64,000 nt of DNA from Arcobacter porcinus (GTDB taxonomy: Bacteria > Campylobacterota > Campylobacteria > Campylobacterales > Arcobacteraceae): assembly GCF_004299785.2 (NCBI RefSeq), contig NZ_CP036246.2, positions 434,001 to 498,000 of the forward strand, given 5' to 3'. Position 1 is the stretch's first letter. Each line of letters opens with the position of its first letter. The notes beneath the pieces were generated by a model. The model made no database searches. It saw nothing but the letters and a program-made list of their open reading frames with translations, and had not been told where the DNA came from. Of the stretch, positions 2,939 through 20,519 are shown one piece after another. The position numbers were made by a program, and so were the translations under genes.

Positions 2939-2963
2939 ATAAAAGAGAATTTCTCTTTTATTT
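2937..2963. terminator. Bidirectional hairpin between convergent genes
   Basis: AAATAAAAGAGAA (2937-2949) is the exact reverse complement of TTCTCTTTTATTT (2951-2963). The stem overlaps the ends of both convergent genes and can serve both. Confidence 0.6.
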
Positions 2964-3794
2964 AACAATTTGATGAAGTTTTGAACACTGTCCTAAATAA
3001 GTATCCATTCCACACATATCATTCATAATATCTTGGAAACTATGAGCATGAGCATTATAAAGATATACAAAAATCTCATCATCTTTTTTTAAGAAATTCT
3101 TTTTACCAAAATCTGTATAAGCTGTTGCCCCTGCTGCTATTAATATACCTTTTGATTTATGTGCATTTTGTAAAAATTGACCTAACTCTTCAAGTGGACC
3201 ACAATCTTCTTGACAATTTAAAATATCAACCATCCAGTTTTTTAATTTTTCAAAAAAATAACTATAAGACTTTACAGCACTTGTTGTTCCATAATCATAA
3301 ACAATACCATCTCTTTTTAGAAAAGAAGAGATATGATATTTACTTAGAATACCTTTTTCAGAGAAATTATCTATCTCTATTAAATCTCTAGAGATACCTT
3401 TTGTTTTTATTCCCCAGTTTTTCTTAGTGCTTAGTTTACTACCATCTTGAGTTCGTAAAGAACAATCATTAAATGCAGTAAAAAATTTTGGGACAATATC
3501 GACTATTTTCTCATTTTCATATATAAAATCACAAATTAGTGCAACTTCTGCTTCAACTTGAATCTTCTCATTTTCTCTTCCATGAGTTAAAATAGTTTCA
3601 TCGCAAATTGGATAAGTTCCTAAAAAACTATCGTGATTTTTTATATAAAAAGGGAACATACCTTTTGGGGCATTCTCTTCTTCTGTTTTAATAAGTGCAA
3701 AACCGTCAGCTTCTCCAGCTTCTCCTAAATGGTTTGCAAAGTTTCCAGCAACTGCAAAACCTAAGTAATCTTTTAAATCTTCTAATAAATTCAT
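2958..3794 (-). CDS. DUF5718-like conserved protein of unknown function
   Basis: This is a cytoplasmic protein of 278 residues. The frame extends upstream to 3833, but the ATG at 3794 has AGGAATTATATTT in front and gives the natural start MNLLEDLKDYLGFAVAGNFANHL. I recognise it with moderate certainty as a DUF5718 family member. Segments such as VEAEVALICDF, KKNWGIKTKG and the charged DCSLR recall the fumarylacetoacetate-hydrolase fold, but I see no complete metal site and assign no activity. Five cysteines in the last third (CQEDCG, MNDMCGMDTYLGQC) are notable. Convergent with the porin; monocistronic. Confidence 0.65.
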   Translation of the reverse strand: MNLLEDLKDYLGFAVAGNFANHLGEAGEADGFALIKTEEENAPKGMFPFYIKNHDSFLGTYPICDETILTHGRENEKIQVEAEVALICDFIYENEKIVDIVPKFFTAFNDCSLRTQDGSKLSTKKNWGIKTKGISRDLIEIDNFSEKGILSKYHISSFLKRDGIVYDYGTTSAVKSYSYFFEKLKNWMVDILNCQEDCGPLEELGQFLQNAHKSKGILIAAGATAYTDFGKKNFLKKDDEIFVYLYNAHAHSFQDIMNDMCGMDTYLGQCSKLHQIVK

Positions 3795-3904
3795 AAATAT
3801 AATTCCTAACAAATAAAAGCAAAATAGTACCAAAAAATAGTATTGAGAATGTCAAAAAAGCAATATAATGTGACTTTTTAAGTTAAATTTAAGATAATAG
3901 GCTT

Positions 3905-3927
3905 ACAAAGAGTTAAAAACTCTTTGT
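3905..3927 (-). terminator. Hairpin downstream of fumarase
   Basis: ACAAAGAGTT pairs with AACTCTTTGT around a three-base loop, just past the fumarase stop. The minus-strand tail is only weakly T-rich. Confidence 0.45.
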
Positions 3928-3932
3928 AATAA

Positions 3933-5432
3933 CTATTTATTAATAGTTCTCCATTTAGCAGGACCAGTTGTATGAATTGAATTACCTTCTGTATCAACTG
4001 CAACAGTAACAGGCATATCTTTTACTTCAAATTCATAAATAGCTTCCATTCCCATCTCTTCAAATGCAAGAATTTTTGCACCTTTAATAGATTGAGAAAT
4101 TAAATAAGCAGCTCCACCAGTTGCAATTAAGTAGATAGATTTGTACTCTTTAATTAAATCGATTGTAGGTTGTTTTCTTTCACCTTTTCCAATCATTCCC
4201 ATAATTCCAATTTCCATCATATCTTTTGTAAACTTATCCATTCTTGTAGCAGTTGTTGGTCCAGCAGGTCCTACAACTTCACCTTTTACAGGATCAACAG
4301 GACCTACATAATAGATAAATTTATCTTTTAAATCAACTCCATTTGGAAGAGGCTTACCTGCATTTTTGTACTCAACTATTTTTTTATGAGCAGCATCACG
4401 TGCAGTTAAAATTTTTCCTGATAAAAGTAGAGTATCTCCTGATTTAAATTGAGATAAGTTCTCTTTTGTTAAATCTTCAATATTTACTTTTTTGATTGTA
4501 TCCATTGGAAGTTCAAGATCTGGCCAAATGCTTAAATCTGGTTTTTTAAATTCAGCTGGACCATTTCCGTCTAGTTCAAAATGAATATGTCTAGTTGCTG
4601 CACAGTTTGGAATCATAGCAACTGGTAAAGATGCAGCATGACAAGGGTAATCTAAAATCTTAACATCTAAAACAGTTGTTAAACCACCTAATCCTTGTGC
4701 TCCAATTCCAAGTTTATTTATATCTTCATAAAGTTTAAGTCTTAACTCTTCAAGTGGAGTTTGAGCACCTCTTGCTTTTAGTTCATGAATATCAACATGT
4801 CCCATTAAAGACTCTTTTGCTAAAAGCATTGATTTTTCTGGGTTTCCACCAATTCCTATACCTAAAATACCAGGAGGACACCAACCAGCACCCATATCTT
4901 TAACATTTGCCATAACCCAATCATAAATACTATCACTTGGATTTAAAACAGCAAATTTTGATTTATTTTCACTTCCACCACCTTTTGCAGCAACAGTGAT
5001 ATCTAATTTATCAGAGTTATCAACACTTACATGAATAACAGCTGGAGTGTTGTTTTTTGTGTTTGTTCTTTTTCCAGCAGGATCACTTACAACTGAGAAT
5101 CTAAGAGTATTATCAGGATCTGTATAACCTTTTGCAACACCTTCATTTAGTAAATCTTCAAGATTTTTTGTAATATCAAGATTTGCTTTTAATCCAACTT
5201 TTACAAAAATATTTACACTTCCTGTATCTTGACAAAGAGGTCTATGCCCCATTGCACACATTTTTGAGTTTATTAAAATTTGACCTAAAGCATTTTTTGC
5301 AGAATCACTTTTTTCATTTTCATAAGCTTCTATCATACCTTTTACAAAGTCTTCTGGATGATAAAAAGAGATGAATTGACATGCAGATGCAACTGAATCT
5401 ATAATATCTTGTTCTGTAATTTTTTTACTCAT
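3933..5432 (-). CDS. Class I (iron-sulfur) fumarate hydratase
   Basis: It interconverts fumarate and L-malate in the TCA cycle, and known class I enzymes can also hydrate mesaconate to citramalate. The single 499-residue chain contains both the alpha and beta parts of class I fumarases. The likely 4Fe-4S cysteines lie in GHRPLCQDTGS, GAGWCPPGILGIG and IPNCAATRH. The C-terminal half carries the GPAGPTTATRMD and ATGGAAYLI segments. AAGAAGGAAAATTT precedes the ATG. It is transcribed apart from the next cluster, because a strong terminator lies upstream at 5555-5586, yet it sits beside a mesaconyl-CoA gene set, which hints at mesaconase use. Tartrate dehydratase is a less likely alternative. Confidence 0.9.
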   Translation of the reverse strand: MSKKITEQDIIDSVASACQFISFYHPEDFVKGMIEAYENEKSDSAKNALGQILINSKMCAMGHRPLCQDTGSVNIFVKVGLKANLDITKNLEDLLNEGVAKGYTDPDNTLRFSVVSDPAGKRTNTKNNTPAVIHVSVDNSDKLDITVAAKGGGSENKSKFAVLNPSDSIYDWVMANVKDMGAGWCPPGILGIGIGGNPEKSMLLAKESLMGHVDIHELKARGAQTPLEELRLKLYEDINKLGIGAQGLGGLTTVLDVKILDYPCHAASLPVAMIPNCAATRHIHFELDGNGPAEFKKPDLSIWPDLELPMDTIKKVNIEDLTKENLSQFKSGDTLLLSGKILTARDAAHKKIVEYKNAGKPLPNGVDLKDKFIYYVGPVDPVKGEVVGPAGPTTATRMDKFTKDMMEIGIMGMIGKGERKQPTIDLIKEYKSIYLIATGGAAYLISQSIKGAKILAFEEMGMEAIYEFEVKDMPVTVAVDTEGNSIHTTGPAKWRTINK

Positions 5433-5593: not shown

Positions 5594-6577
5594 TTAAGCA
5601 AAAAATCTTTTTTCTGCTTCTGGAAGTAGTGCAACTCCTGAGAATTTTGCTCTTTGAACTAGTTCCCAGAAATATCTATAAGTTGCTCTATCGTGTAGTT
5701 CTCCATCATATTGAATTGGTCCCCACTCAGCATCTTGAGCTTTAATTAAAATATTTTGAGCAGCTACAAGTTCTGTAAAGTCAGGTTTCATAGCATCAAC
5801 AATTGCTTGAACTTGTGTTGGGTAAATTGACCACATTCTCATAAATCCAAACTCATTTCTTGCTCTTTCAGCATCTTTGTATGTTTGGTAAGGATTTTTA
5901 AGATCAAGAGTAACATTATGGCAAGGAATCACATAGTTTTGAATAGCTGCTTGTGCAACTCTAGCTTTTGCAGCTGCAATTAATCTATGCTCAAATTGTC
6001 CAGGGCTTCTCATATTTATTGCAGGAATTGCTCCTTGATATCCACTTACAAAGTCCATTAAACCAAAATCTAAAACTTGTAACCAAGGAAGTGTTGCAAT
6101 TTTCTCAACATCTTGTAATGCACCATGAGTCTCTATAAGTACGTGAATTGGAATCTCTCTTTTTATACCATTCTCTTTTGCTACTTTTTGAATATACTCA
6201 ATTTGAGTTTTAGCATCTTCATAACAAGTTGATTTAGGAAGAGTAATATATGCAAGATTTTCTCCAGCACCTGCAACTAAGATATCAACATCTTGTCTCC
6301 AATCTTTATGAGAATGATCATGAATTCTTGTTCCAGCCATTTTATATGGGTTATCACCTGAGTTTACAACTCTTACTATCATTTGAGCATGCTCAACTTC
6401 TTTACCAGTTTCTGCTCCATCTTCACAATCACAAGTGATATCAAAAACAGGACCTAGTTTTTTTTGCATTTCAAAACCTTTTAGGATTAGCTTTTCGCTT
6501 CCTGCAAAGTGCTCACAAGTTGGGATAATTGGTAAAGATTTACCAGCTTCAAATAGTGCTTGATTTGGGTGTGTCAT
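5594..6577 (-). CDS. HpcH/HpaI-family CoA-ester lyase (malyl/methylmalyl-CoA lyase-like)
   Basis: This 327-residue TIM-barrel protein belongs to the CitE/malyl-CoA lyase superfamily, which splits or forms 3-hydroxyacyl-CoA thioesters. The metal-binding acidic residues appear intact in DITCDCEDGAE, LIETHGAL and LDFGLMDF. It resembles the CoA-ester lyases of beta-proteobacteria more than the citrate-lyase beta subunit. It is the last gene of an operon with a mesaconyl-CoA hydratase, so cleavage of beta-methylmalyl-CoA to propionyl-CoA and glyoxylate (or the reverse) is the best guess. Malyl-CoA or citramalyl-CoA are alternatives. AAAGGAAAAAAC precedes the ATG. Confidence 0.8.
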   Translation of the reverse strand: MTHPNQALFEAGKSLPIIPTCEHFAGSEKLILKGFEMQKKLGPVFDITCDCEDGAETGKEVEHAQMIVRVVNSGDNPYKMAGTRIHDHSHKDWRQDVDILVAGAGENLAYITLPKSTCYEDAKTQIEYIQKVAKENGIKREIPIHVLIETHGALQDVEKIATLPWLQVLDFGLMDFVSGYQGAIPAINMRSPGQFEHRLIAAAKARVAQAAIQNYVIPCHNVTLDLKNPYQTYKDAERARNEFGFMRMWSIYPTQVQAIVDAMKPDFTELVAAQNILIKAQDAEWGPIQYDGELHDRATYRYFWELVQRAKFSGVALLPEAEKRFFA

Positions 6578-6607: not shown

Positions 6608-7678
6608 TTATTTTTTTGTTGATTTTTTTGGAATAATTACTGTGTAATCTAAATCCAAAACTACATTTGGAAGATATTTTCCATCTTCACCTTTTGCATC
6701 TTCTATCTCATTTGAAGATAGATTTTTAAGAGCAATTGTTCTTAATCTTAAAAGACCAATATCTTCTCTTTTATGATCAATTTTTTCTAAAATCTTTGTA
6801 TAAGCATAAATTGTATCTCCTGCATAAGTAGGATTACTGTGAGTTCCACTGTTTATGCTATAAATCCATTGAGCGTTTTGTAAACCATTGTATGAAGCAG
6901 TTCTTGCCATTGAAATCACAACTCCACCATACATTAATCGTTGTTTCATTGGAGTGCTTTGCATCATATGGTCATTGAAATGAACTTTTGCATTATTTTG
7001 ATAAAGTTTTGTTGCTAAAGTGTGATCACTATCATCAACAGTTATTCCCTCAGGGTGATTAAGACTTTCTCCTACTTCATAATCTTCAAAGAAATATTTT
7101 CCACCACTTGCATCTGTATTCACAGAAGATATTTTTGGAATATTAATTTCATCTAAAATTTTTGTAGTTTTATCAAAATTTGGTACTTCATTTATATCAC
7201 TTCTTGTAGAGTGATCTTTTTTATGAACCATAACCCATCTTTTTAGATTTAAAACTTCTTCATTGTTTTGATTTACTCCAATTGAGTGAACATAAACAAC
7301 TCCACTTTTTCCATTTGAATTCTCTTTTAATCCAATTACAGTTGAAGTCATAGAAACTGTATCTCCTACATAAACTGGATTTGGAAAAGATATCTCTGCA
7401 TAACCTAAATTTGCAATTGCATTTAAAGATATATCTTGAACAGATTTTCCAAAAGTTAAGTGAAACATTAAAAGATCATCCAAAGGTCTTTTTTTATAAC
7501 CAAACTCTTTTGCCACAATATCACTTGAATGCAAAGAGAATCTAGAACCAGTAAAAGCAATGTATAAAGATACATCACCTTCACTAATTGTTCTTGGAAG
7601 AGGATGAACTATTTTTTGACCAATTTTGAAATCTTCAAAATAGTTACCAAAATTAATTTTATTGCTTATTTTTGACAA
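6608..7678 (-). CDS. mch: Mesaconyl-CoA hydratase (beta-methylmalyl-CoA dehydratase), MaoC-type
   Basis: It is predicted to interconvert mesaconyl-C1-CoA and beta-methylmalyl-CoA. The protein is a double hotdog: the first half begins NYFEDFKIGQKIVHPLPRT, the second YFEDYEVGESLNHPEGITV. Segments such as TGSRFSLHSSD, DDLLMFHLTFGK and NLGYAEISFPNPVY match my recollection of the Rhodobacter/Chloroflexus Mch family closely. The frame opens at a TTG at 7699, but that lacks a ribosome site. The TTG at 7678 follows AAGGAG by 6 bases and is preferred (356 residues). It starts 10 bases after the ligase stop, so the genes are translationally linked. Confidence 0.82.
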   Translation of the reverse strand: MSKISNKINFGNYFEDFKIGQKIVHPLPRTISEGDVSLYIAFTGSRFSLHSSDIVAKEFGYKKRPLDDLLMFHLTFGKSVQDISLNAIANLGYAEISFPNPVYVGDTVSMTSTVIGLKENSNGKSGVVYVHSIGVNQNNEEVLNLKRWVMVHKKDHSTRSDINEVPNFDKTTKILDEINIPKISSVNTDASGGKYFFEDYEVGESLNHPEGITVDDSDHTLATKLYQNNAKVHFNDHMMQSTPMKQRLMYGGVVISMARTASYNGLQNAQWIYSINSGTHSNPTYAGDTIYAYTKILEKIDHKREDIGLLRLRTIALKNLSSNEIEDAKGEDGKYLPNVVLDLDYTVIIPKKSTKK

Positions 7679-7688
7679 GTAAAACTCC

Positions 7689-10211
7689 TTATTTTCCAAA
7701 TAGATTTTGACCTAAAGCTTTGTATGTTTCGTAAAGCTTTATCATTTTTCTAGCCCAAACAATTCTTGAAGAATCTACTAATCTATTGTTATGTAATATT
7801 ACTTCTTTACCTTGTTTTGTTGCTTCTTCATATTTTTCTATCATATCTTCATAGTCTTCTACTTCACTCTGTTTTGGAGTAAAAATATCATTTATATAAT
7901 CAATTTGAATTGGATGAATCAATGATTTTCCATCAAATCCTAAATTAAATGCATCTTTTGTTGAATCTTCACAAGCAAACTCATCTTGAACATCAAAGTG
8001 AGGTCCATCTATTACCATTTTATTATAAGCTTTTGAAGCAAGTGCAATTTGTGCTAAATATGTAACAATCGCTTTTGAACCTCTTTTTATATCTATTTGA
8101 AGTCTATTTGCAAGTTTATTTGAACCAACAACAACAACTTCAACTTTTGGGCTTGCTGCACAAATTTCATGAATATTTAAAACAGATAAAGGAGTTTCAA
8201 TCATAATCATAAGAGTAAGATTTGGATTAACTTCTTCTATTAGTTTAACTGCTTTTAAAACATCCTCTTTTGTATCAATTTTAGAGAATAGTAAAGCATC
8301 TATTTCAATCTCTTTTGCAAGAGCTAAATCTTTTTTAAGATCTTCACTTCCAAGATTGTTTACTCTGATTACTCTTTCACTCTCTCCAAATAAAGGACCA
8401 TCATTCTTAAATGTTTCTCTAATAACTGTTCTTCCAGCCTCTCTTTGCTCTTCTAAAATAGCTTCAAGGTCAAAAATCACTGTATCTGCTAAAACAGTTC
8501 TTGCTTTTTCCATCTTATGTAAATCATATGGTGGTACCAAAAGCATAGATCTTCTTGCTTTATATTCAACAACTTCTTCACCTTTTTCTATTGCGAAATA
8601 TTGTTCGTGAAGATCTTTTACAAGTTGTTTTCTAAGAACTTTTCCATTTTTTGTTCTAGGATAATCACTCATAGTAAATATCTCTTTTGGAGCTTTATAC
8701 TTTGCTAAATTATCTTGAGAAAATTTTAAAATCTCTTGCTCTTTCTCTTTACTTAAAGTGTTATGACCAACAACAGCAATAGCAACTAAAGTTTTATCTT
8801 TTTCAATATCAAGTCCAAAAGCAACACAATCAGCAACATCTGGATGAGTTTTTACAACTCTTTCAATTTCATGAGGACTTACTCTAAATCCAAAAGTATT
8901 AATAATGTCATCTTTTCTTCCAATAAACCAGATATAACCATCTTTATCTTTTCTTGCATAATCACCTGTGAAGAAATATCCATCATGTCTTGCTTTTGCA
9001 GTCTCTTCTTCAAGTTGCCAATACTCTAAAAATAATCCAGGATCATCCTCTCCAATACAAATCATTCCCTCTTCTTCAACTCCAACTTCCTCTAAAGTTT
9101 CAGGATTTATAAGTTTTACAATATGTCCTGGTTGTGGAAAACCAGCACTTCCTGGTCTTATTGGATTGTTTTTTGAGTGAGAAATATAGTATGAACACTC
9201 ACTCATTCCAATTGCTTCAAAGATATCTTGTTTGAATCTATCTCTCCAAAGTCCAAGCATCTCATCACTTAAATGCTCTCCAGCACTCATGCAATATCTT
9301 AAGCTTGGGCAATCTTCAAGAGTAAAATCTGTTTTTTGAATAATTTGTCTATATATTGTTGGAACTCCAATAAATATAGTACACTCATGTTTTTTGATTA
9401 AATTAATCCATGTTGAAGCATCATTTGCACCTTCATAAGCAATAACTGTATGACCATTATAAAGTGGATCCATAAGTGCAGAACCTAAAACATAAGTCCA
9501 GTTGAATTTTCCTGAGTGCATTATTCTGTCATTTTCTTTAAAATCAAACCAAAAATCAGTTGCTGGTTTTCTTCCAACAAGAGATCTATGTGAGTGTAAA
9601 ACACCTTTTGGATAACCTGTTGTTCCTGATGTATAAACTAAATATGCAGGTTCTCCTGATTTTGAGTTATAGTGATTTGCTGTTTTATCACTTTTTTCAA
9701 ATATTTGATTTAATGCAAAAACTTCAATATCTTTTGGCTTTTTGAACTCTTCAACACTATCAACTCCAGCTATAACTATTGTTTTTAGATTATCAAGGTT
9801 TTCTAAATATGGAACAAGATTATCATACATAGAAGCAGATAAAACAATAGCTTTTGCTTGTGAATCTTCTGCAAGGTATTTAACTTCACTACCACTTAAA
9901 AGTGTTGAAGTTGGAACTGCAATCATTCCACCTTTCATAACACCAAAAAATGAAATAGGGTAGGCTAAAGAGTTTTTTAAACAAACTAAAACTCTATCTC
10001 TTGGTTTTATACCTATTTCTTGAGTAAAGAAGTTTGCAACTTGATCAGATTTTGTTGCTAAATCTTTATATGAAATTTTATCAGTTCCTAGTTTATCATC
10101 TTCAATAATCATAGCAATGTTGTTCTCTTTTGAAGTTCCAACATGAAGCGATGTACAAGCAACACCTATATTTAAAAATTCTGGTATATCTATTTTTACT
10201 GTTTGGCTCAT
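7689..10211 (-). CDS. Acyl-CoA synthetase fused to a CitE-like lyase domain
   Basis: Residues 1 to about 545 form a complete AMP-forming acyl-CoA ligase: A3 motif YTSGTTGYPKG at 193-203, GMSE near 335, TGD near 415, and catalytic lysine in RTKNGKVLRK near 524. The N part resembles the benzoate-CoA ligase group. Residues 552-840 are a CitE-like barrel beginning RRSMLLVPPYDL and ending with GKSLIHPIQI. In it the first acidic motif reads FDLEAI, and the metal Asp motif (usually GxxDL) reads GSNKL at 696-700, so the lyase half may be inactive or altered. It may activate a C5 dicarboxylic acid such as mesaconate, itaconate or citramalate. TAGGAGAATAAA precedes the ATG. Confidence 0.85.
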   Translation of the reverse strand: MSQTVKIDIPEFLNIGVACTSLHVGTSKENNIAMIIEDDKLGTDKISYKDLATKSDQVANFFTQEIGIKPRDRVLVCLKNSLAYPISFFGVMKGGMIAVPTSTLLSGSEVKYLAEDSQAKAIVLSASMYDNLVPYLENLDNLKTIVIAGVDSVEEFKKPKDIEVFALNQIFEKSDKTANHYNSKSGEPAYLVYTSGTTGYPKGVLHSHRSLVGRKPATDFWFDFKENDRIMHSGKFNWTYVLGSALMDPLYNGHTVIAYEGANDASTWINLIKKHECTIFIGVPTIYRQIIQKTDFTLEDCPSLRYCMSAGEHLSDEMLGLWRDRFKQDIFEAIGMSECSYYISHSKNNPIRPGSAGFPQPGHIVKLINPETLEEVGVEEEGMICIGEDDPGLFLEYWQLEEETAKARHDGYFFTGDYARKDKDGYIWFIGRKDDIINTFGFRVSPHEIERVVKTHPDVADCVAFGLDIEKDKTLVAIAVVGHNTLSKEKEQEILKFSQDNLAKYKAPKEIFTMSDYPRTKNGKVLRKQLVKDLHEQYFAIEKGEEVVEYKARRSMLLVPPYDLHKMEKARTVLADTVIFDLEAILEEQREAGRTVIRETFKNDGPLFGESERVIRVNNLGSEDLKKDLALAKEIEIDALLFSKIDTKEDVLKAVKLIEEVNPNLTLMIMIETPLSVLNIHEICAASPKVEVVVVGSNKLANRLQIDIKRGSKAIVTYLAQIALASKAYNKMVIDGPHFDVQDEFACEDSTKDAFNLGFDGKSLIHPIQIDYINDIFTPKQSEVEDYEDMIEKYEEATKQGKEVILHNNRLVDSSRIVWARKMIKLYETYKALGQNLFGK

Positions 10212-10228
10212 TTTATTCTCCTATATAA

Positions 10229-11362
10229 TTACAGTTGACCATAAGGCCAATTTTCTTTAAATGTATTTAATGGCATTCTATTTAAAACACTAAGAGCAAA
10301 AAGCTCGTCTTCTTTTGTAAGGCTTTTAAGAGCATAAGCTCTTAAAATATTTTGTAACGACTTTCCAAACATTGGAGGATCTAGCATCTCACCTTCATAT
10401 CTAATTGCTCCACTTAAAAGTGCATCAGCTTCAATAGCAGCTTTTAATATTGAAACATCTTTTGCAATCTCATTTGGAGATGGAGTAAATGCAACTTTAC
10501 AGATATTAATGTGATTTGGAGTAATAACTTGTTTACCAGTTAATCCCATTGCACTCTCTCTTAAAGCATGAGAATAAACATATTTACTAGCTTCATCTCC
10601 ATGTAAGTCTAGCCATCTTCTAATGTCTTTTTTCTCAACACAATTACTAGGAAGAGAGTGTGGAGTAAGAAGAACTTCAACTCCTCCAATTACTCCTTTA
10701 CCTTTAATTCTTGCTTCTAAAGTTAGCATATCAAAATATGTTTCAAGTTCATCAATCCAACCTTTTGGAGTGATTTTATAAGCCATAGCTTTTGAAAAGT
10801 CATGAATTCCAAAAACAATATGCTTTACAGTTGAATACTCCATCAACCTATCTGCAATTTTTAAAGATTTAGGATGCTCTATAATTGGTTGAATTGTAAG
10901 ATCACTTCCAATAGAAATTAACCAAGAAGATAAGTCTCTAATCTCTGCACTTCCATAAACTTCACCTGCTTTTGCTAAAACAATAACATCAACATATTGA
11001 TGAATTTGCTTTAACATTTTTAAATCCTCTTCATACTCTTCTGTTCTAAACTGATTTATTCTAATAGCTATTTGAAAATCTCTCTCTGGAAACTTTGGTA
11101 ACTCTTGAATTAAAAGCTCTCTACTTTGTGCTTTTTGTCTACAACCATCTTCTAAGTCAAATAAAACTGTATGTGCTCTTGTATTATAAGCATGTTTTTG
11201 TAGTCTTAATTTTGCTTGTTCCATACTCTCGTAAGAACCATCAAGAGGATTAAATTTTATTGGAGGGTAATAAATTTGAATCCCTGGCCAATAACCACCA
11301 AGAACTGGAGTCAAATCATCTTTCGCTGTTAATTTAGATAAATCTATTGAAGAAGTCATCAT
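10229..11362 (-). CDS. CitE-like HpcH/HpaI-family lyase
   Basis: This 377-residue member of the CitE/malyl-CoA lyase superfamily is distinct from the one at 5594. Its active-site acids look intact: VLFDLEDG near residue 66, PIIEHPKS near 160, and VFGIHDFSKA near 185. It is longer than CitE (about 300), with an extra N-terminal strand region and insertion. It is the first gene of the four-gene operon, 17 bases before the ligase fusion. AAAGG lies before the ATG pair at 11362/11359. Substrate unknown; citramalyl-CoA, methylmalyl-CoA or malyl-CoA fit the context. Citrate lyase is unlikely because no alpha, gamma or ligase subunits are nearby. Confidence 0.78.
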   Translation of the reverse strand: MMTSSIDLSKLTAKDDLTPVLGGYWPGIQIYYPPIKFNPLDGSYESMEQAKLRLQKHAYNTRAHTVLFDLEDGCRQKAQSRELLIQELPKFPERDFQIAIRINQFRTEEYEEDLKMLKQIHQYVDVIVLAKAGEVYGSAEIRDLSSWLISIGSDLTIQPIIEHPKSLKIADRLMEYSTVKHIVFGIHDFSKAMAYKITPKGWIDELETYFDMLTLEARIKGKGVIGGVEVLLTPHSLPSNCVEKKDIRRWLDLHGDEASKYVYSHALRESAMGLTGKQVITPNHINICKVAFTPSPNEIAKDVSILKAAIEADALLSGAIRYEGEMLDPPMFGKSLQNILRAYALKSLTKEDELFALSVLNRMPLNTFKENWPYGQL

Positions 11363-11417
11363 ATTTTCAACCTTTCTTTGAATTTTCTTTTATTTTTTAT
11401 GAATTTGGGGAAACATA

Positions 11418-11471
11418 AAAAGATATAGAGAATTTATACACGAATAATTATGAATAATCTTTATATCTTTT
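11418..11471. repeat. Long-armed inverted repeat upstream of the lyase operon
   Basis: AAAAGATATAGAG (11418-11430) faces CTTTATATCTTTT (11459-11471), 12 of 13 positions complementary plus one G-T. Between them GAATAAT occurs twice with 10-bp periodicity (11442, 11452). It lies between bioD and the operon's first gene, so it could be an operator or a bioD terminator with a large loop. Confidence 0.4.
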
Positions 11472-11496
11472 AATATAGTAATTTATTTTAAGCTTA

Positions 11497-12126
11497 TTAT
11501 AAGAAACTAAGCCTTTTAAAGTAATCTTCTAAAAATGGCTTTGTAACTTTTTCAAAGCTATCTAGATCTTTATATAGATTTATAAAAAAATCAAAATCAA
11601 TATCTTTGTTTTTTAAAGCATTCATAGATAATAAGATATCATTAATACAACCTAAGTTTGATGGACCTATTAAAAAAGCTTTTGTATTAAACTCTTTAAT
11701 TAAATCAATCATAAAATAATCTATTTCTATTGGAACCATTAATCCACCAGCACCTTCAACAATCAAAATATCACAAAAACTAAGTAGGTAATCTTTTTGT
11801 TTTTTTAAAAAATCAATATCTATAAAAGTGTTTCCTTTTGCTACATAAGGAGAAGCAGGAAGTGTAAATTGATAAGGAACAACATCTTTAATAGATAGTT
11901 TTTTATAATCACTATTTAAATTACATGCTAGATTAAATAGTTTAGTTCCATCAAATGGTTGATTGTTTATAACTCCTGTTTCAATTGGTTTAAAGTAACC
12001 AACTTTTAAACCCTCTTTTGCAAAAAAGTTTAATAGCTTTTCACAAGCATAAGTTTTTCCTACATCTGTATTTGTTGCTGTTACAAAAATAGCTTTTCCA
12101 ATGTACTGTTTTGAATTTATATTCAT
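11497..12126 (-). CDS. bioD: Dethiobiotin synthase
   Basis: It forms the ureido ring of dethiobiotin from DAPA, CO2 and ATP, the penultimate step of biotin synthesis. The 209-residue protein has the P-loop-like TATNTDVGKTYACE near residue 16, the YFKPIETG motif near 44, and VEGAGGLMVPI near 120, all diagnostic of BioD. AGAGATTATT precedes the ATG. It is divergent from clpS. The other biotin genes are not in this window; a biotin-dependent carboxylase subunit is encoded at 52.9-54.4 kb. Confidence 0.95.
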   Translation of the reverse strand: MNINSKQYIGKAIFVTATNTDVGKTYACEKLLNFFAKEGLKVGYFKPIETGVINNQPFDGTKLFNLACNLNSDYKKLSIKDVVPYQFTLPASPYVAKGNTFIDIDFLKKQKDYLLSFCDILIVEGAGGLMVPIEIDYFMIDLIKEFNTKAFLIGPSNLGCINDILLSMNALKNKDIDFDFFINLYKDLDSFEKVTKPFLEDYFKRLSFL

Positions 12127-12201
12127 AATAATCTCTTTTTTGTTATAATCTTTTTCGTTTTAAATTAAACGATAGTAACATAATTTTTATAAGGGTTTTA
12201 T

Positions 12202-12501
12202 GTGAGTAATGAGATAGAAATAGAGTTAAATGAAGATTTAGAAGTTGAAGAACCAAAGAAGTATAGTGTTTTTTTATTAAATGATGATTATTCAACTATG
12301 GATTTTGTAATAGATGTTTTAACAAAGGTATTTAGAAAAAACACAAGTGAAGCAGAAGCTATTATGCTAAATGTACACAATAATGGAAAAGGACTTTGCG
12401 GAGTATATAGTTTTGAAATTGCTTCAACAAAAGTTGCACAGGTAAAAACACTTGCAAGAGAACAAGGTTTTCCTTTAAAAGCTGTAATGGAAGAAGAATA
12501 A
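12202..12501 (+). CDS. clpS: ATP-dependent Clp protease adaptor ClpS
   Basis: ClpS delivers N-degron substrates to ClpAP. The 99 residues contain the family core KYSVFLLNDDYSTMDFVIDVL and the N-degron pocket region, ending in VEMEE-like acids. The start is GTG at 12202, 6 bases after AAGGG; the nearby ATG at 12200 runs straight into a stop. The stop is one base before the clpA ATG, so the two are one operon. Confidence 0.95.
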   Translation: MSNEIEIELNEDLEVEEPKKYSVFLLNDDYSTMDFVIDVLTKVFRKNTSEAEAIMLNVHNNGKGLCGVYSFEIASTKVAQVKTLAREQGFPLKAVMEEE

Positions 12502-12502
12502 A

Positions 12503-14719
12503 ATGATAAGTAAAGAGTTAAGAGAAGTATTTTCATTAGCAATTAACTTTGCAAAAAGAAATAAACATGAATATTTAACACTAGAACATATATTTTTAAT
12601 GCTTATAAATAGCAATACAATAAAAGATATGTTTAATGATTTAGGAGTTGATAGTAAGGCTTTATTTGAAGAGCTAAAAGAGTATATAAGTTCAAATACT
12701 CCAAAACTTCCAGAAGGAATTATTGATGAACCAATAGAAACTGTTGCTTTATCATCAACTATTGAATATATGGTTGCACACACTCAAGGAAGTGGAAAAA
12801 CTCAAGCTAATGTTGAAGATATGTTTGTGGCAATATTAAAAGATGAAAAATCATATTCAACATATCTATTAAAGAAATTAGGAATTCAAAGAGTAGATAT
12901 TTTAGAAGAGATATCACATAAAGATACAGAAGAACATAATGAAGAGAGTAAAAAAGAAGAGCAGAGTGAAAAGATATTAGAAGAAAATTCAAGTGAATTA
13001 GTAGCTGTTGCAGAAAAATCTCAAATAGATCCAGTAATAGGAAGAGATAAAGAGATAGAAAGAGTTATTGAAATTCTAAGCAGAAGAAAGAAAAACAATC
13101 CTCTTTTAGTAGGAGAACCAGGAGTTGGAAAAACAGCAATTGCTGAAGGATTAGCACTTAAAATTGCTAAAAAAGAGGTTCCCTCATTTTTAGAAGATGC
13201 AAAAATATTCTCACTTGATATGGGTTCAATGCTTGCAGGCACAAAGTATAGAGGAGATTTTGAGAAAAAATTAAAATCCCTTTTAAAAGAGATAACAAAA
13301 ATACCAAATGCAATTTTATTTATTGATGAAATTCATACAATTGTAGGTGCTGGAAGTGTTGGTGGAAGTGCAATGGATGCTTCAAATATTTTAAAACCAC
13401 TTTTAGCAAATGGAAAACTAAGATGTATTGGAGCAACAACTTTTAGCGAATATAGAAATGATTTTGAAAAAGACAAAGCACTTAGTAGAAGATTTGCAAA
13501 AGTTGATATAAATGAGCCATCAATAGAAGATTCAATAACAATTCTTGAAGGTTTAAAGTCAAAATATGAAGAGTTTCATAAAGTTAAATATTCAAAAGTT
13601 TCAATAATTAGTGCAGTTGAACTTAGTAAAAAGTATATAAATGATAGATTTTTACCAGATTGTGCTATTGATGTAATAGATGAGGTTGGAGCTTCTAAGA
13701 AAATATCTTTGCAATCTACATTAAAAACAGAAAATGAATCAAATATTACAATTACGCAAAAAGATGTAGAAGATACAATAGCAAAAATGGCTCATATTCC
13801 ATCAAGAAGTGCAACAAAATCAGATTTAACACTTCTAAAAAATTTAGAAAAGAATATGCAAAAAAGAGTTTTCGGACAAGATGAAGCTATTGTAAAAATA
13901 GTTCAAGCAATAAAAATCAATAAAGCAGGTTTAGGAGTTGATAAAAAGCCAATAGGAAGTTTTTTATTTACTGGACCAACAGGAGTTGGAAAAACGGAAG
14001 TAGCAAGAGAATTATCTTTACAAATGGGAGTTCATTTTGAAAGATTTGATATGAGTGAATATATGGAAGCTCATGCAATTTCAAGACTTATTGGAGCCCC
14101 TGCTGGATATATAGGATATGAGCAAGGTGGACTTTTAACTGAATCAATAAGAAAACATCCACATAGTGTACTTTTACTTGATGAAATAGAAAAAGCTCAT
14201 CCTGATTTGATGTCAATCTTACTTCAAGTTATGGATAATGCAGAATTAACTGATAATGCAGGAAATAAAGCTGATTTTCAAAATGTTATTTTAATAATGA
14301 CTTCAAATCTTGGAGTTAGTGAAGCAAATGTTATGGGATTTGCAAAAAATGATAAGTTAAATGAAAATAGAGCTATAAATAGATTTTTTGCACCTGAATT
14401 CAGAAATAGGCTTGATAGTGTTATTAGTTTTGAAAGCTTAAGTTTAGATGTTGTTTCTAAAATAGTAGGAAAATTTATTGAAGATTTAGAAAAGCAACTT
14501 GAAAGTAAAAAAATCAAAATAGAAATTAGTAAAAAAGCAAAAGATGAACTAGCAAGATTAGGATATGACAAATCAATGGGAGCAAGACCACTAAATAGAG
14601 TAATCTCAAAAGAGATAAAAAATAGATTAACAGATGAAATATTATTTGGTAAATTAAAAAAAGGTGGTCTTGTAAAAATTGACTTTAAAGATGAATTTCT
14701 ATTTGAATATATAAATTAG
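12503..14719 (+). CDS. clpA: ATP-dependent Clp protease ATP-binding subunit ClpA
   Basis: This AAA+ unfoldase feeds ClpP. In order along 738 residues: Clp N-domain (about 1-140), first AAA domain with Walker A GEPGVGKT near residue 206 and DEIHTIVGAG, second AAA domain with GPTGVGKT near 491, and a C-terminal D2-small domain. There is no long coiled-coil middle domain, which separates it from ClpB. It follows clpS with a one-base gap. An acid-rich linker lies between the N domain and the first AAA domain. Confidence 0.95.
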   Translation: MISKELREVFSLAINFAKRNKHEYLTLEHIFLMLINSNTIKDMFNDLGVDSKALFEELKEYISSNTPKLPEGIIDEPIETVALSSTIEYMVAHTQGSGKTQANVEDMFVAILKDEKSYSTYLLKKLGIQRVDILEEISHKDTEEHNEESKKEEQSEKILEENSSELVAVAEKSQIDPVIGRDKEIERVIEILSRRKKNNPLLVGEPGVGKTAIAEGLALKIAKKEVPSFLEDAKIFSLDMGSMLAGTKYRGDFEKKLKSLLKEITKIPNAILFIDEIHTIVGAGSVGGSAMDASNILKPLLANGKLRCIGATTFSEYRNDFEKDKALSRRFAKVDINEPSIEDSITILEGLKSKYEEFHKVKYSKVSIISAVELSKKYINDRFLPDCAIDVIDEVGASKKISLQSTLKTENESNITITQKDVEDTIAKMAHIPSRSATKSDLTLLKNLEKNMQKRVFGQDEAIVKIVQAIKINKAGLGVDKKPIGSFLFTGPTGVGKTEVARELSLQMGVHFERFDMSEYMEAHAISRLIGAPAGYIGYEQGGLLTESIRKHPHSVLLLDEIEKAHPDLMSILLQVMDNAELTDNAGNKADFQNVILIMTSNLGVSEANVMGFAKNDKLNENRAINRFFAPEFRNRLDSVISFESLSLDVVSKIVGKFIEDLEKQLESKKIKIEISKKAKDELARLGYDKSMGARPLNRVISKEIKNRLTDEILFGKLKKGGLVKIDFKDEFLFEYIN

Positions 14720-15561: not shown

Positions 15562-17080
<1,519 letters not shown>

Positions 17081-17178
17081 CAAAGAAAACTATTAATATT
17101 TGATTATTAATAGAAAAAACAATTAACAATATATGTTCGGTTTATAAAGGTTATTTAGAGAAACACATGTAGGTGAAG

Positions 17179-17255
17179 GGGCCTATAGCTCAGCTGGCTA
17201 GAGCGCTCGACTGATAATCGTGAGGTCTCAGGTTCAAGTCCTGATAGGCCCACCA
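17179..17255 (+). tRNA. tRNA-Ile (GAT)
   Basis: A 77-base tRNA with acceptor GGGCCTA/TAGGCCC, anticodon loop CTGATAA (anticodon GAT), T loop TTCAAGT and encoded CCA. It lies in the 16S-23S spacer. Confidence 0.97.
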
Positions 17256-17270
17256 TTAAATAATCTTGTT

Positions 17271-17346
17271 GGGGAATTAGCTCAGCTGGGAGAGCGCCTG
17301 CTTTGCACGCAGGAGGTCAGCGGTTCGATCCCGCTATTCTCCACCA
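17271..17346 (+). tRNA. tRNA-Ala (TGC)
   Basis: A 76-base tRNA with acceptor GGGGAAT/ATTCTCC, anticodon TGC in TTTGCAC, T loop TTCGATC and encoded CCA. It follows tRNA-Ile by 15 bases. Confidence 0.97.
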
Positions 17347-17609
17347 AAAAGAAAGAGTAAAGTTAGATATAAGTTTTTATAGAGATATAAAGATTTATAT
17401 CTGGTTTTAAACTAGAGTGATATTTAAAAATATAATGTTAAAGTCTTTAAAATTTTTTCGTAAATTTAAATAGCGATATTTGAATTTAAAAATAAATTTC
17501 ATATCAATAATGATATAACACAACTAAATTATTAAATGTAAATTTAATAAGATAGTAGCCAAAGAATATTATCAAATTATAAATATAAGAAATTATATTT
17601 ATAGGCAAA
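17347..17609 (+). other. Spacer before 23S with second boxA-like site and processing stem
   Basis: No gene is seen. GTCTTTAAAAT (17443-17453) repeats the boxA-like motif of the leader. Bases 17545-17570 (core AAGATAGTAGCCAAAGAAT) are largely complementary to 20525-20551 after the 23S gene, forming the 23S processing stem. Confidence 0.6.

Positions 17610-20519
<2,910 letters not shown>

Follow-up and report, generated by a model that had tools for sequence, protein, structure and literature searches.

The closest described counterpart of the locus studied here is the gene cluster AB1917-AB1921 of Arcobacter butzleri, which the 2007 genome paper lists as a CitE-like protein, an acetyl-CoA synthetase with a CitE domain (AB1918), an enoyl-CoA hydratase, another CitE-like protein, and a fumarase. 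That paper described the ligase-CitE fusion and proposed for the cluster a route between glyoxylate plus propionyl-CoA and pyruvate plus acetyl-CoA (PMC2147049). We analyzed a similar cluster of Arcobacter porcinus, located in a 64,000-nucleotide stretch of NZ_CP036246.2 (positions 434,001 to 498,000, hereafter the window), from a genome of 2,018,219 bases in one contig. Its fusion gene lies on the minus strand, from 10211 to 7689, and codes for 840 residues, an acyl-CoA ligase followed by a CitE-like half. Pseudo-lyase status of this second half is well supported by the sequences: none of the fused relatives examined retains the metal site, but selection continues to maintain the domain, whose present role is probably that of a partner, without catalysis of its own, to the active lyases of adjacent genes. 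In contrast, the A. butzleri account counts all three CitE proteins, AB1918 included, as possible malyl-CoA lyases, and its passage on the cluster mentions no lost site (PMC2147049). No publication on the lost CitE site was among the papers listed in searches of the open-licence PubMed Central (PMC) literature; the fusion is already known, and the loss of the site is apparently unreported in that literature. Judging from its genus-mates, AB1918 is expected to share the loss, in which case its CitE part should not count as a malyl-CoA lyase candidate.

In the malyl-CoA lyase structures treated in PMC3832036, Glu141 and Asp168 bind Mg, Glu44 and Asp45 hold the metal-bound waters, and catalysis involves Arg76, oriented by Asp42, and the lid residue Asp299. 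This lid Asp serves the active site of the neighboring subunit, and the family trimer is needed since each lid closes the site of the next subunit; the metal and water acids are described as absolutely conserved across the superfamily (PMC3832036). The CitE-like half resembles this superfamily (4L9Y, 4L80, 5UGR) in fold, hinge, lid Asp and, mostly, Arg, but it lacks two of the "absolutely conserved" acids and is fused to a ligase. A family that departs from this rule, while selection maintains it alongside two intact relatives, provides a natural test case for the conversion of a subunit to a tethering or regulatory role in enzymes whose subunits share active sites. A system that works in a comparable way is the aspartate transcarbamoylase/pseudo-dihydroorotase of Pseudomonas aeruginosa, in which an inactive chain with an enzyme fold is needed by its active partner; its fold and pathway are different, and the complex was shown there whereas here we infer it (PMC7053772).

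Loss of the metal site

A pattern scan of a species-genome collection gave 114 confirmed places, of which 80 were kept and 38 (L004-L041) matched both halves of the fusion; the fusion of L026 is cut by a contig end and was left out of the residue counts. The window copy, 37 full fusions and 16 more from genomes of the window's phylum made a set of 54 proteins, 51 of them distinct over the last 700 residues, and all residue counts in fusions refer to these 51 unless another total is given. Every gene or motif of the window located below is on the minus strand.

The CitE-like (HpcH_HpaI) half, delimited by Pfam, the predicted model and fold comparison, covers residues 550-838 (7698..8564). Where a DLED motif is expected it reads DLEA (residues 581-584, 8460..8471), and the Asp45-type position holds Asp in no fusion (Ala in 41, Gly in 5, Tyr in 3, Met and Glu in one each). 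The GxxD[LFY] motif is replaced by GSNKL (696-700, 8112..8126), the Asp168-type metal ligand having become Lys in 35, Asn in 9, Thr in 5, Gln in one and Ser in one, with no acidic residue in any of them. Other positions are retained to different degrees. The Glu44-type residue is Glu in 49/51; the Arg76-type residue, R616 in the motif RVN (616-618, 8358..8366), is Arg in 48 and Lys in three; and the Glu141-type metal ligand of IET (671-673, 8193..8201) is kept here but drifts, being Glu in 46, Asp in three, Gln in one and Ala in one. The lid residue Asp813 (7773..7775), equivalent to Asp299, the Asp42-type D581, and the Phe and Pro of the F-T-P stretch at 777-779 (7875..7883), which corresponds to the lid hinge described in PMC3832036, are each present in 51/51. 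The lid Asp, which acts in trans in the malyl-CoA lyases, is therefore the only invariant one of the six catalytic positions, the Arg-orienting D581 being invariant too. Compared with catalytic CitE/malyl-CoA lyases, the window copy has the catalytic Arg and the lid Asp, and both the Mg-binding Glu-Asp pair (the Asp is lost) and the water-holding pair of DLED are broken. The initial annotation had read DLEA, GSNKL and a surviving IET glutamate in the window, all of which are there, but this glutamate is not fixed across the fusions. The alignment has a one-residue gap after DLE, so the Asp may have been deleted rather than replaced by Ala; the gap is also what could be said for an alignment artefact, the doubt raised beforehand about residues 696-700, or for a sequencing error. 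Both are refuted by identical losses in 51 distinct sequences.

These replacements make it very probable that the CitE-like half is catalytically dead as a lyase. The domain could instead still be an enzyme whose changed chemistry dispenses with the metal, for example acting as a thioesterase, transferring CoA within the molecule or performing a hydratase step. D581, N618 and D813 (51/51 each) and R616 would be at hand for it, the invariant polar residues D735, D743, E744, C747, E748 and H766 (38/38) leave room for it, and the closest relatives carry Glu in the lid, a mark of the malyl-CoA thioesterase cluster according to PMC3832036. However, freely varying residues occupy the lost positions (K, N, T, Q, S at one; A, G, Y, M, E at the other), R616 and E672 drift, and the characterized CitE-like enzymes listed in PMC3832036 need Mg or Mn, so we regard a new chemistry as improbable.

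Fold and selection

The CitE-like half was predicted from 20 sequences as a barrel with a lid (mean predicted local distance difference test score, pLDDT, 82.6; predicted template modeling score, pTM, 0.73). Foldseek ranked malyl-CoA lyases at the top for this model (best match 4l9z, E 3.2e-18), and VIA-align superposed it on 5ugr, lid included (Z 26.2, 274 residues, root-mean-square deviation 9.9), and on 4l9y_D (Z 25.2, 219 residues, deviation 2.4). The half thus appears, on the predicted model, to have the triosephosphate isomerase (TIM) barrel and C-terminal lid of CitE/malyl-CoA lyases. Among the segments compared, conservation is highest in two of the C-terminal part of the barrel, around IDGP (731-748) and around GK..HP.Q (756-772), where many invariant residues are found.

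In the barrel, the ratio of nonsynonymous to synonymous substitutions (dN/dS) lies between 0.04 and 0.17 for the 20 closest pairs, and the medians are 0.151 for the ligase, 0.201 for the barrel and 0.231 for the lid (803/810 pairs with a ligase dS of 0.05-1.2). The CitE-like half is constrained by purifying selection, though less than its neighbors. It combines a conserved loss of catalytic residues with purifying selection, as expected of a pseudoenzyme. With the model, the structural matches and the loss in 51/51 fusions, this bears out the earlier proposal of a pseudo-lyase with its fold kept and its metal site gone. A decaying relic of a formerly active lyase, retained only through the fusion, would account for the domain evolving faster than its neighbors. 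Such decay is very unlikely, given the low dN/dS of the barrel in close pairs, the absence of internal stops in the domain (none in 18/18 genome matches), the maintenance of unfused versions as separate genes, and the spread over several groups according to record titles.

The ligase half (residues 1-535, 8607..10211) has all the marks of an AMP-forming acyl-CoA ligase, namely the AMP-binding domains, the A3 motif and the C-terminal lysine, and its description as complete was right. The Pfam matches along the fusion are all above cut-off: AMP-binding at 42-398 (PF00501, 1.2e-70), AMP-binding_C at 448-524 (PF13193, 5.2e-12) and HpcH_HpaI at 554-767 (5.5e-29). The A3 motif YTSGTTGYPKG (193-203, 9603..9635) varies at two positions only among the fusions (T/S once; Y/F), and K524 of PRTKNGKVLR (8640..8642), which we take to be the catalytic lysine, is Lys in 51/51. 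As to its substrate, no NCBIfam model reached its cut-off for the ligase half among the best 25 of 110 matches. The limits first given for the gene, 7689-10211, were correct; the plus strand there is full of stops. The top matches elsewhere carry Arcobacter or Aliarcobacter in their titles, at 85-90%.

Unfused relatives and origin of the loss

When 274 genomes sampled from the class of G298 (L031, titled Gammaproteobacteria) were searched with the domain profile, 62 places scored E 1e-20 or better. One is the fusion of G298 itself, 15 were examined with wide flanks and 40 with narrow ones, and the six lowest were left out. In five of the 15 wide-flank places (L127, L128, L129, L131 and L132) the domain is a separate gene inside the same cluster. 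The cluster products show 62-66% (CitE2, the intact lyase upstream of the fusion), 54-59% (ligase), 46-53% (the hydratase-like MaoC protein) and 60-69% (Mcl, a second intact lyase) identity. L127 and L128 are nearly identical, and the Mcl of L128 is in two pieces. The order ligase-pseudo-lyase-MaoC occurs unfused in L127, L128, L131 and L132; in L129 the part with the domain, MaoC and Mcl is divergent from the CitE2-ligase part. The water-holding pair is absent in all five (DLHE, DLHE, DLGA, DLHR and ELHE). Three have Asn in place of the metal Asp, which L129 and L131 retain, and L131 has lost the Arg76-type Arg.

Outside the cluster, the metal Asp as well as the water-holding Glu-Asp pair was retained in 57/57 homologs (counts include duplicate sequences). 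These comprise 10 wide-flank places, the 40 narrow-flank ones, for which the cluster was excluded through the absence of CitE2 from the genome and not through the flanks, and seven picked from elsewhere in the phylum of the window, including an additional copy from the cluster-bearing genome G164. Among the homologs examined, erosion of the site tracks the gene cluster, not the fusion.

In the tree, 19 fused rows form one clade (support 100/100) with a long stem (1.42 changes per column), and fused rows, unfused rows and the intact L130 form another (99/99). L130, an unfused relative 33% identical to the fused domain, heads a run with prpB, prpC and prpD; it differs in its intact metal site and lid Glu, and no CitE2, ligase, MaoC or Mcl was found in its 14 kb. 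A single loss of the site is not supported: with L130 placed among the unfused rows (89/87, then 81/53), more than one loss has to be assumed unless the placement is in error.

According to record titles, the 38 fusion loci belong to Arcobacteraceae, Sulfurospirillum, Gammaproteobacteria and one Thermodesulfovibrionales bin. In the phylum of the latter (G300, L033), the domain was found at E 1e-20 or better in 1/148 genomes, G300 itself, so this occurrence rests on one metagenome bin. In the order of G298, CitE2 matches were found in 5/24 genomes, four of them full-length and the fifth (G308) a fragment of 71 residues where a contig stops.

Neighboring genes and pathway

CitE2 (377 residues, 10229..11362), an intact CitE-like lyase, is the immediate upstream neighbor of the fusion. 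On the other side are a two-domain MaoC protein similar to mesaconyl-CoA hydratase (6608..7699), Mcl, an intact lyase of the 3qqw/3r4i type (5594..6577), and a class I fumarase, possibly a mesaconase (PF05681/PF05683, 3933..5432), which is adjacent in many Arcobacteraceae loci. The order CitE2-fusion-MaoC-Mcl is found in 36/38 loci, and the remaining two (L010 and L026) stop at or within the fusion. After dropping the MaoC of L020 and the short Mcl of L015 and L037 from the neighbor counts, the six catalytic positions are intact in CitE2 (39/39, with DLED, R, IEH, GIHDF and lid D in all) and in Mcl (35/35), both counts including duplicate sequences. Mcl is close to 3QQW of Ralstonia eutropha (457 bits) and 3R4I of Burkholderia xenovorans (330 bits), which are only 14% and 13% identical to the fused domain in the fold alignment. 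The predicted CitE2 model was too poor for a fold search (mean pLDDT 61.9). Across loci, CitE2 is 74-96% identical to the window copy, and it reads IEH in 39/39 where most relatives seen have IET or IES. In L020, a metagenome-assembled genome, MaoC appears as two open reading frames of 120 and 207 residues (10524-11588 of that locus), through a genuine break or an error of assembly.

The MaoC protein matches the Pfam family MC_hydratase over nearly its full length (PF19315, residues 16-324, 4.9e-21, 75.7 bits against a cut-off of 26.5); its score against the NCBIfam equivalog 2-methylfumaryl-CoA hydratase (Halo) is 73.7 bits, far below the cut-off of 560. Genes for the methylcitrate cycle adjoin the cluster in two (L033 and L129) of the 12 loci whose neighbors were partly scanned. 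In L129, prpB, prpC and prpD come after the genes for the domain, MaoC and Mcl. The L033 cluster precedes genes for an acyl-CoA synthetase, the alpha chain of a fumarase and a PrpB-like/citrate synthase fusion, and lastly a prpD truncated by the locus end. Class I fumarases are able to hydrate mesaconate (PMC4682846). Together, the MaoC match, the prp neighbors and the mesaconate hydration by fumarases lead us to favor a route through mesaconate or mesaconyl-CoA and beta-methylmalyl-CoA to glyoxylate plus propionyl-CoA. The prp link of some loci makes this a testable proposal for joining propionyl-CoA, glyoxylate and mesaconate. The window's genome has only one match to the isocitrate lyase family, a 298-residue frame of PrpB size.

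The PrpB-like/citrate synthase fusion of L033 is a single protein (12084-14087 of that locus) with a PrpB-like lyase (PEP_mutase/ICL families) and a citrate synthase domain, beside prpD and the cluster. L129 has, between CitE2-ligase and a GntR-type regulator, a short malic-enzyme-like gene of 412 residues (3785-5023; the best NCBIfam model is 764 long), and an IclR-type regulator is found upstream in two Sulfurospirillum loci (L027 and L038).

A proposed mixed assembly with the neighboring lyases

Of 298 genomes searched from the window's phylum, 18 had full-length CitE2 (five more had weak partial matches). Mcl and the fused domain (E 1e-145 or better) were found in exactly these 18; another 56 genomes had other CitE-like matches only. 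In the 274-genome sample, CitE2 was found in six genomes, precisely the six with the eroded domain (56/62 domain places examined). Since the genomes are related, the independent events behind these 18 and 6 occurrences number far fewer than 24. Shared occurrence does not distinguish between CitE2 and Mcl as the partner.

The retained barrel, hinge and lid most likely still allow the domain to join the trimer or hexamer typical of the family, and whether it is a structural partner of an operon lyase seems to us an even question. The pseudo-lyase would enter a mixed trimer or hexamer with an active lyase of the operon, CitE2 being the first candidate and Mcl the second, and would bring the ligase to it. 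Substrate would go from the ligase to the mesaconyl-CoA hydratase-like MaoC and on to the lyase, in a reversible conversion of mesaconate or mesaconyl-CoA to beta-methylmalyl-CoA and of this to glyoxylate and propionyl-CoA, the latter being handled by the methylcitrate cycle. In the fused lineage the invariant lid Asp would be placed over the active site of a neighboring subunit, and its being the only invariant one of the six catalytic positions fits such a service; still, donation of the lid in trans is a tentative idea. The whole reading, a conserved pseudo-lyase welded to a ligase and assembled with an active operon lyase in a mesaconyl-CoA/propionyl-CoA route, is in our opinion as apt to be right as wrong. 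Its boldest version is rather speculative: a kind of subunit new to the CitE/malyl-CoA lyase superfamily, catalytically dead, encoded by a gene of its own in some Gammaproteobacteria and ligase-fused in others, that assembles obligately with CitE2, lends its lid Asp in trans in the fused lineage and forms a substrate-passing ligase-lyase machine.

Several observations weigh against the mixed assembly. The fused CitE-like half evolves faster than its neighbors (mean distances over 34 loci of 0.45 for the barrel and 0.53 for the lid versus 0.25 for the ligase, 0.18 for CitE2, 0.32 for MaoC and 0.19 for Mcl). CitE2 and Mcl each have a lid Asp of their own and could work alone. A mirror-tree analysis of the same 34 loci gave no partner signal, with partial correlations near zero (barrel-CitE2 -0.05, barrel-Mcl 0.06, lid-CitE2 -0.07, lid-Mcl 0.15). 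No prp gene was found among the scanned neighbors in 10/12 loci (L027, L028, L029, L031, L032, L034, L038, L127, L131 and L132). L129 and L131 retain both direct metal ligands (the metal Asp and the IET-type Glu), so metal binding may survive in these two. With the sequence split at the hinge, conservation is 0.746 in the lid versus 0.777 in the barrel; a better conserved lid was apparent only when the split was set at residue 720. Finally, the lid acid is Gln in 3/5 unfused relatives (L127, L128 and L132) and Glu in two, which weakens lid donation as a general function; in general the domain more likely acts in assembly, by keeping the ligase close to an active lyase. The arm suggested in the initial annotation, serving a partner lyase encoded in the same operon, is favored by shared occurrence and gene order, lacks a signal in the mirror-tree, and as an interaction is something we infer.

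The pseudo-lyase could also form a homotrimer or homohexamer, a scaffold that oligomerizes the ligase and binds CoA thioesters without cleavage, to hold or sense them, with no mixing with CitE2 or Mcl. The kept fold and the strongly conserved C-terminal barrel segments with their many invariant residues are in keeping with this scaffold, but it would by itself leave unexplained why, in both samples, CitE2 was found only together with the eroded domain, and we consider it unlikely, if still worth attention.

Other features of the window

A DUF5718 protein (PF18985, 316.6 bits; 2958-3833) with no NCBIfam match comes after the cluster in many Arcobacteraceae loci, including some with no fumarase found in the flank (L013 and L016-L018), and may belong to the pathway. 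Positions 16001-20000 have a G+C content of 0.44, versus 0.26-0.31 in the other 4-kb blocks, and few open reading frames above 120 residues; our guess is an rRNA operon.

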